From positions 1-34,516 of the IMG/VR virus record IMGVR_UViG_3300027660_000004: a stretch of 34,516 nucleotides of DNA; one strand, written 5' to 3'. Under the pieces are notes generated by a model. That model was not told where the DNA came from. It searched no databases and worked only from the letters and a program-made list of their open reading frames with translations. Source of the stretch: a virus. This document shows, in pieces, positions 29,476 to 30,231 of this stretch; the first letter of the stretch is position 1, and every line of letters begins with the position of its first letter. The translations under genes and the position numbers were made by a program.

Positions 29476-30231
29476 TTGAATGAGCTGGCACTTTTCGCGG
29501 GTGCAGGTGGAGGAGTTCTCGCAAGTCAACTCCTTGGGCATAGAATCGTTTGCGCCGTCGAGAACGATGCTTACGCCACAGGGGTATTGTTGCAGCGCCA
29601 AAATGATAAAATCCTTGCCCCGTTCCCGATATGGGATGACGTTAGAACATTTGATGGAAGAGAGTGGCGAGGTATTATTAACTTGGTTTCGGGAGGATTC
29701 CCTTGCCAAAGTATCTCCTCTGCCGGCAAAGGGGCAGGGATACAAGAGGGAACAAGGTCAGGACTGTGGTTTGAGTTTTCAAGGATTATTGGAGAAGTCC
29801 AAGCAGAGTGGGTTTGGATTGAAAACTCTCCCGTCATTGTCAGACGGGGAATGGGTATTGTCCTCTCTCACCTTTCCGAAATGGGGTACGATGCGGAATG
29901 GGGTGTATTGGGAAGTGGAGACATTGGAGGGCCAAGCGTCAGAAAGAGAATGTGGATTCTTGCCCACTCCAACCTCTACCGATTGGAAGAGAACACCCAT
30001 GAAAACAAACTACGCCTACCGCCCGATGACAAGAGGTACATCAGACACCTTGGCTCAATGGGCAGTGCGGGAGTCTGGTCTACCCCACGCCCGATTGGTG
30101 CCCGACCTATGGGAGTGGGTCCTGTCGTGGCCTCTGATGTGGACAGGCTTAGAACCATTGGTAATGGTCAAGTACCTATCGTGGCGGCTGCGGCATTTAA
30201 GGTGCTTATGAGCAGATTCTGTGCCGACTAG
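29476..30231 (+). CDS. DNA cytosine-5 methyltransferase
   Basis: 251 aa from TTG, 5 bases after GGGAGG. All core C5-MTase motifs: I (ALFAGAGGG, 5-13), II (E29), IV with catalytic C77 (GGFPCQS, 73-79), VI (ENS, 116-118), VIII (GGPSVRKRMW, 151-160) and IX/X (RLRTIGNGQVP, 224-234). The target-recognition region is very short. No cognate restriction enzyme is evident, so it is likely an orphan protecting phage DNA from host restriction. It splits the exonuclease and polymerase halves of the phage PolA. Nearly its whole length is also open in the +1 frame (next entry). Overlaps the polymerase start by 11 bases. Confidence 0.88.
   Translation: MNELALFAGAGGGVLASQLLGHRIVCAVENDAYATGVLLQRQNDKILAPFPIWDDVRTFDGREWRGIINLVSGGFPCQSISSAGKGAGIQEGTRSGLWFEFSRIIGEVQAEWVWIENSPVIVRRGMGIVLSHLSEMGYDAEWGVLGSGDIGGPSVRKRMWILAHSNLYRLEENTHENKLRLPPDDKRYIRHLGSMGSAGVWSTPRPIGARPMGVGPVVASDVDRLRTIGNGQVPIVAAAAFKVLMSRFCAD
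29480..30211 (+). CDS. Overlapping +1-frame protein inside the methyltransferase gene
   Basis: 243 codons from ATG, 9 bases after the same GGGAGG used by the methyltransferase. The translation (MSWHFSRVQVEEFSQVNSLG; TFPKWGTMRNG at 131-141; LPTPTSTDW at 161-169; WEWVLSWPLMWTGLEPL at 211-227) resembles, from memory, a recurrent phage hypothetical-protein family (MSW-x-FS, WPKWG-x-MR-x-G, PTPT, WLMGWP-x-x-WT-x-L-x-PL). The family's C-terminus is what one gets by reading a C5-MTase motif IX/X region in the other frame, so the relation between the two frames may be ancient. Either both are translated or this is a conserved shadow. Chance of 243 stop-free codons is about 1 in 100,000 with uniform codons. 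Confidence 0.55.
   Translation: MSWHFSRVQVEEFSQVNSLGIESFAPSRTMLTPQGYCCSAKMIKSLPRSRYGMTLEHLMEESGEVLLTWFREDSLAKVSPLPAKGQGYKREQGQDCGLSFQGLLEKSKQSGFGLKTLPSLSDGEWVLSSLTFPKWGTMRNGVYWEVETLEGQASERECGFLPTPTSTDWKRTPMKTNYAYRPMTRGTSDTLAQWAVRESGLPHARLVPDLWEWVLSWPLMWTGLEPLVMVKYLSWRLRHLRCL

Follow-up and report, generated by a model that had tools for sequence, protein, structure and literature searches.

Layout of the locus

The window analysed here, that is, the whole stretch of 34,516 nucleotides of the virus record IMGVR_UViG_3300027660_000004, carries on its plus strand a putative C5 cytosine DNA methyltransferase gene in which two reading frames are open. The first frame (F1, or alpha; 29476..30231) starts with TTG and encodes a catalytic polypeptide of 251 aa with motifs I-VIII and X. 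The second (F2, or beta; 29480..30211) lies in the +1 frame relative to F1, starts with ATG and encodes a polypeptide of 243 aa, whose predicted content, namely motif IX and a variable (target-recognition) region under constraint, is assigned on the basis of a match to phrog_1008, stop depletion and frame-specific selection. The two starts are interlocked in the sequence TTGAATG (29476..29482), with the F1 TTG at 29476 and the F2 ATG at 29480, and have in common a Shine-Dalgarno-like GGGAGGA (29465..29471), also on the plus strand, separated from the TTG by 4 nt and from the ATG by 8 nt. The sequence thus bears out an earlier note on this DNA, which had described frame 2 as open for 243 codons, with an ATG 4 bases past the TTG and a single ribosome-binding site. 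Among 301 relatives, a Shine-Dalgarno-like motif precedes the starts in 234, and the F2 start lies exactly 4 nt past that of F1 in 240.

The pair is flanked on one side by a protein with uracil-DNA glycosylase (UDG) and 3'-5' exonuclease parts (28111-29475) and on the other by a DNA_pol_A protein (30221-31573). The two proteins align one after the other along phrog_17 (559-827 and 843-1233 of 1445), and the two flanking genes read as a polA-type polymerase split in two, with the methyltransferase pair in between. Such a split-polymerase neighbourhood was looked for around the pair in other loci and was found in none. An HNH endonuclease gene, possibly related to homing or packaging, lies directly 3' of the polymerase half (31570-32127; PF01844, 1.3e-10), and a ParB-like partition protein is encoded on the opposite strand (32563-33837; phrog_4715, 1.2e-13).

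The catalytic polypeptide in frame 1

F1 matches phrog_363 (E=1.5e-54) and PF00145 (E=1.2e-28), the latter over profile positions 4-177 of 324 only, and its residues 4-168 match M.HhaI (E 5.9e-10). C5 methyltransferase motifs I, IV (PCQ), VI, VIII and X are all present. In particular, the PCQ, EN, RxR and GNGQV columns are invariant or nearly so in alignment A7, in which P76 and C77 of the catalytic Pro-Cys-Gln of motif IV (29701..29709) and G229, N230, G231, Q232 and V233 of motif X (GNGQVP; 30160..30177) show no variation. A canonical motif IX was looked for in F1 and is absent. AlphaFold2 models the catalytic domain and a C-terminal helix of F1 with confidence, leaves residues 179-226 disordered (pLDDT below 50) and gives no target-recognition domain; a Foldseek search with the model returns M.HaeIII and M.HhaI (1dct, 1fjx). 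In these two enzymes target recognition and motif IX reside in the same chain, unlike in F1, where the region in question is disordered and, as reported below, unconstrained, and no target-recognition domain accompanies the catalytic motifs. Since the PF00145 match is confined to positions 4-177 and motif IX is absent, frame 1 is to be regarded as an incomplete methyltransferase, and its earlier description as a complete C5 methyltransferase has to be abandoned.

Openness of frame 2

F2 matches phrog_1008 (E=6e-13). By tblastn it has matches in 37 phage records, 16 of which cover 80% or more of F2, and the matches fall within genes annotated as methyltransferase or hypothetical. The proposal that frame 2 belongs to a widespread phage family is thereby confirmed. 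A scan of viral contigs with the single F2 sequence returned one distant locus, too divergent for use.

The openness of frame 2 was evaluated on loci collected through frame 1, each scan contributing its closest 80 loci. The test set consisted of the closest 80 IMG/VR loci by the window protein and 78 more by the frame-1 alignment and, since these loci were picked by frame-1 similarity, the state of frame 2 had no part in their choice. A further 80 viral and 80 bacterial loci came from searches with frame 2. By profile HMMs, one for each frame, both frames are full-length and overlap in phase +1 at 141 of the 158 frame-1-found loci, and a full-length frame 1 with a broken frame 2 occurs at none of the 158. 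As a null, synonymous codons were shuffled within each gene, so that the frame-1 protein and the codon counts were kept. In the window alone, no interior +1 stop is present against 5.0 expected, and none of 300 shuffles was stop-free. The 68 frame-1-found representatives (below 75% identity) contain no interior F2 stop against 334 expected, and all 159 representatives at the same threshold contain 15 against 745, with 12 against 572 over the half that encodes motifs I-VIII. Thus, synonymous changes in frame 1 do not create stops in frame 2; their free creation is what the earlier note had held to count against its proposal. Stop depletion was also looked for in the +2 frame of the same loci and in the antisense frames, with none detected in either, and methyltransferases with motif IX in frame, among them canonical ones from the same genomes, do not show comparable +1 openness.

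A single close relative (L227:3699-3702) has an F2 nonsense codon while its F1 is full-length. An apparent swap of the two frames in L044, L068 and L030 was ruled out, as an indel shifts both frames together.

Selection on the two frames

Frame-specific substitution rates, a check that had been suggested for this locus, indicate purifying selection on both frames. Counted by frame-1 codon position in independent pairs, the ratio of third- to first-position substitutions is 0.86, 1.08 and 1.43 at 90-98, 80-90 and 70-80% nucleotide identity, respectively; the genes that flank the pair at these loci give 2.85, 3.02 and 2.44. In an OLGenie-like count over the closest pairs, with control genes taken in the equivalent shifted frame, F2 has a dNN/dNS of 0.34 (0.23-0.48) against 0.76 and a dSN/dSS of 0.21 against 0.54; these rates, like the regional ones below, were obtained by counting, and their SS sites are few and saturated. 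The corresponding dNN/dSN of F1 over the gene is 0.40; the values of F1 and F2 are of similar size, and both frames are therefore similarly constrained. A comparable signal was looked for in the flanking genes read in the shifted frame and is absent.

The constraint is distributed unevenly along the gene, as seen in regional rates from 34 pairs. Over motifs I-VIII the values are 0.18 for F1 and 0.58 for F2, with a dSN/dSS of 0.12 against 0.73 in controls, so that the N-terminal half of beta is itself constrained; at the C-terminal end they are 0.46 and 0.30. In the variable region (29971..30135), which separates motif VIII from motif X, F1 has a dNN/dSN of 1.12, as in an unconstrained spacer, and F2, which there encodes WPTP-type modules, has a dNN/dNS of 0.34; the fastest class of sites in this region is position 1 of F1 codons, which is position 3 of F2 codons. 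With F2 constrained and F1 free over this stretch, the target-recognition part is taken to be read in frame 2, in agreement with the disorder of F1 residues 179-226 in the AlphaFold2 model. Individual codons show the coupling of the frames as well: for F1 Arg108, CGA is used in 203 of 258 loci, and this codon lets F2 read Tyr-Asp or Phe-Asp.

At the level of DNA comparison, these data establish dual coding with purifying selection that differs by frame and region. The earlier note had left the choice between a dual-coding pair and a shadow frame that misleads annotation; dual coding is upheld, as is the effect on annotation described below, and the selection tests exclude the shadow frame.

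Motif IX in frame 2

The C-terminus of F2 is conserved across the family as LNPxWVEWLMGWPxGWTDL. In the window this segment reads VPDLWEWVLSWPLMWTGL (30098..30151) and diverges from the family form as VPDLWEWVLSWPLMW. Since the F2 C-terminus has no direct match to PF00145 in Pfam, its identity as motif IX is drawn from two bridging single-chain methyltransferases, L325 and L408, in which LNPDWVEWLMGYPISW lies in frame 5' of motif X and aligns to M.HhaI. L325, on a Candidatus Megaera plasmid, is an ordinary single-chain enzyme, spanned by PF00145 from residue 3 to 333, in which the segment stands just before motif X and is aligned by phmmer to M.HhaI residues 270-314, that is, to motifs IX-X. 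The +1 frame of this bridge contains 11 stops against 16.7 expected, a mild depletion. By this homology, the conserved F2 pattern is the genuine motif IX and the shifted reading of that DNA is the one in frame 1, which corrects the earlier view of the F2 pattern as the shifted reading of motif IX/X.

The association holds when sites are drawn by the DNA pattern for WVEWLMG[FY]P alone: at 70 of 81 such viral sites, motifs I-VIII and X are found in the -1 frame, and one of the other sites (L408) is single-chain. Where methyltransferases read EPxVGRVAxGVxxRVDRLKALGN in frame 1, the +1 frame is open and it is there that motif IX is found. In this broader sister class, beta mostly begins about 145-200 nt inside alpha, with a median overlap of 77% of alpha, as against the 4 nt between the two starts in most loci of the window's family. 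It is reasonably likely that these genes form a large unrecognised class of C5 methyltransferases, in which the catalytic gene, read in its +1 frame, supplies motif IX and the part for target recognition, and that the phage branch has stretched this arrangement to full-length dual coding. If so, many database 'DNA cytosine methyltransferases' devoid of an in-frame motif IX would be alpha subunits only, and their beta subunit would lie unannotated or misnamed in the same DNA. One viral contig, L419, has two motif-IX sites about 1 kb apart (818-843 and 1860-1885), apparently two overlapping alpha/beta pairs in tandem.

The structure of F2 alone is predicted poorly by AlphaFold2 (pLDDT 55, pTM 0.20), except for a central and a C-terminal helix. 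A Foldseek search with this low-confidence model gave no match, and the F2 profile gave chance-level matches only against PDB sequences. Such a prediction is what a subunit dependent on its partner for folding would give, although it does not prove it.

A two-polypeptide methyltransferase and its alternatives

The reading that best accommodates these observations, with a probability of roughly 0.8, is that two polypeptides, encoded in frames 0 and +1 of the same DNA, together make up a single C5-cytosine DNA methyltransferase. Ribosomes starting at the TTG at 29476 would produce alpha, with the SAM-binding and catalytic motifs I-VIII and the C-terminal motif X, and those starting at the ATG at 29480 would produce beta, with an N-terminal segment, the target-recognition region and motif IX. 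The two chains, made from one mRNA with two starts, would then assemble into the active methyltransferase, an assembly that is proposed because alpha alone has neither target recognition nor motif IX. We infer, accordingly to this scheme, that F2 is translated in vivo, that a heterodimer forms and that activity needs both chains. The enzyme is probably a solitary phage methyltransferase that would protect phage DNA from host restriction.

Alternatively, F2 could be an independent overprinted protein, such as an anti-restriction or regulatory factor, for which the overlap is incidental. Indeed, the constrained N-terminal half of F2 over motifs I-VIII (dSN/dSS 0.12) has no assigned function, and some loci retain F2 despite nonsense codons in F1: in-frame F1 stops with F2 open across the site are seen in L051, L151, L195, L277, L169 and L212, and the stop in L208, at F1 codon 108, is TAG. 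These codons could reflect decay, assembly error or a role of F2 independent of F1. The independent reading is nevertheless unlikely, as F2 has precisely the motif IX and constrained variable region that F1 is missing, and no F2 was found among the loci examined, contig edges apart, that had no methyltransferase sequence in the adjoining -1 frame. Further evidence against independence comes from five independent split loci (L036, L042, L098, L177, L201), in which the F2 reading frame runs past motif IX to include motif X and F1 is shorter, ending right after motif VIII in L177 and L201 (168 and 170 aa). Because motif X lies on the F2 reading frame in these loci, it can sit on either polypeptide, a re-partitioning that is expected if both polypeptides form one enzyme.

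Slightly less probable still is a single chain made by programmed frameshifting, in which translation would follow F1 to motif VIII, switch by +1 to F2, where motif IX and target recognition are encoded, and return to F1 for motif X. In its favour, the domains follow one another along the DNA as they do in a normal single-chain enzyme, but two opposite shifts would be required, and neither the stop-freeness of F2 over motifs I-VIII (12 against 572 expected) nor its own ATG 4 nt past the F1 start (240 of 301 loci) would be explained. Since F2 is stop-free over motifs I-VIII and has a start of its own, beta is likelier to be ATG-initiated than frameshifted.

Very improbable is an untranslated shadow frame, kept open by the amino-acid content or codon bias of frame 1. 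F2 is recovered only where the methyltransferase frame is present, and conserved DNA read in a shifted frame always retains some similarity; however, shuffles that leave amino acids and codon usage intact give an expectation of 334 stops against none observed, depletion is absent from the +2 and antisense frames and from the canonical methyltransferases of the same genomes, and in the variable region it is F2, not F1, that is constrained. The codon shuffles and the frame-specific substitution rates together rule this reading out.

Returning to the two-polypeptide enzyme, its two products appear to be complementary subunits, with labour divided domain by domain between the frames. To our knowledge, few long same-strand dual-coding pairs are conserved in so many divergent genomes, here in the hundreds, and the pair would offer a natural system for the co-evolution of two proteins on one stretch of DNA as well as a source of split methyltransferases. 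A 'methylase gene' of this kind cloned with recoded codons is predicted to yield an inactive enzyme.

Comparison with known systems

The closest precedent is M.EcoHK31I, an established two-polypeptide C5 methyltransferase in which the coding regions of the large and small polypeptides overlap, the small one using an alternative frame. The likeness is one of motif content, with motif IX on the second polypeptide and motifs I-VIII and X on the first. The large polypeptide of this enzyme, which targets YGGCCR, contains motifs I-VIII and X, together with the predicted target-recognition domain, and the small one contains motif IX (PMC3404938). In the window, unlike in M.EcoHK31I, constraint on the variable region is seen in F2 rather than in F1, the overlap is full-length and the starts lie 4 nt apart. 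New with respect to M.EcoHK31I are the overlap over the full length, the placing of the target-recognition region in beta and the spread among phages at large.

In M.AquI, likewise an established two-polypeptide enzyme, alpha contains motifs I-VIII and beta the distal variable region and motifs IX-X (PMC3404938). The split loci L177 and L201 resemble it in motif content, with IX and X on beta; the window differs in that motif X stays on alpha and the genes overlap throughout.

It is barely conceivable that F2 conceals a homing endonuclease of the kind of the ShiLan element, an out-of-frame HNH within an actinophage methylase and thus a precedent for an out-of-frame reading frame in such a gene (PMC11855218), as that element is inserted, not full-length and outside the enzyme, whereas F2 spans the whole gene with no insertion, has motif IX, and gave neither an HNH domain nor any other match in Pfam or NCBIfam searches.

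Family spread and annotation

The arrangement is kept in hundreds of phages and prophages, where it is usually annotated as one methylase or as one 'hypothetical protein'. The pair or its close relatives match phrog_363 through F1 and phrogs 1008, 26627, 35493 and 27243 through F2. Of the latter, phrog_1008 carries the label 'DNA methyltransferase', although catalytic motifs are absent from F2, the other three are of 'unknown function', and the description of none mentions a beta subunit. A search of the open-access literature, with most subscription papers outside its reach, returned no paper on phage C5 methyltransferases with a beta frame overlapping alpha. The two-polypeptide enzyme would explain a common family of phage hypothetical proteins, and automatic annotation would be dropping one half of a common enzyme. 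That annotation has been misled, as the earlier note suspected, is seen in deposited records: those of Vibrio phage 1.291.O (L085) and Pseudomonas phage phPA-G (L086) give F2 as 'hypothetical' and omit the methyltransferase, and that of Klebsiella phage BUCT711 (L084) has a truncated F1 with its start moved inward (1662).
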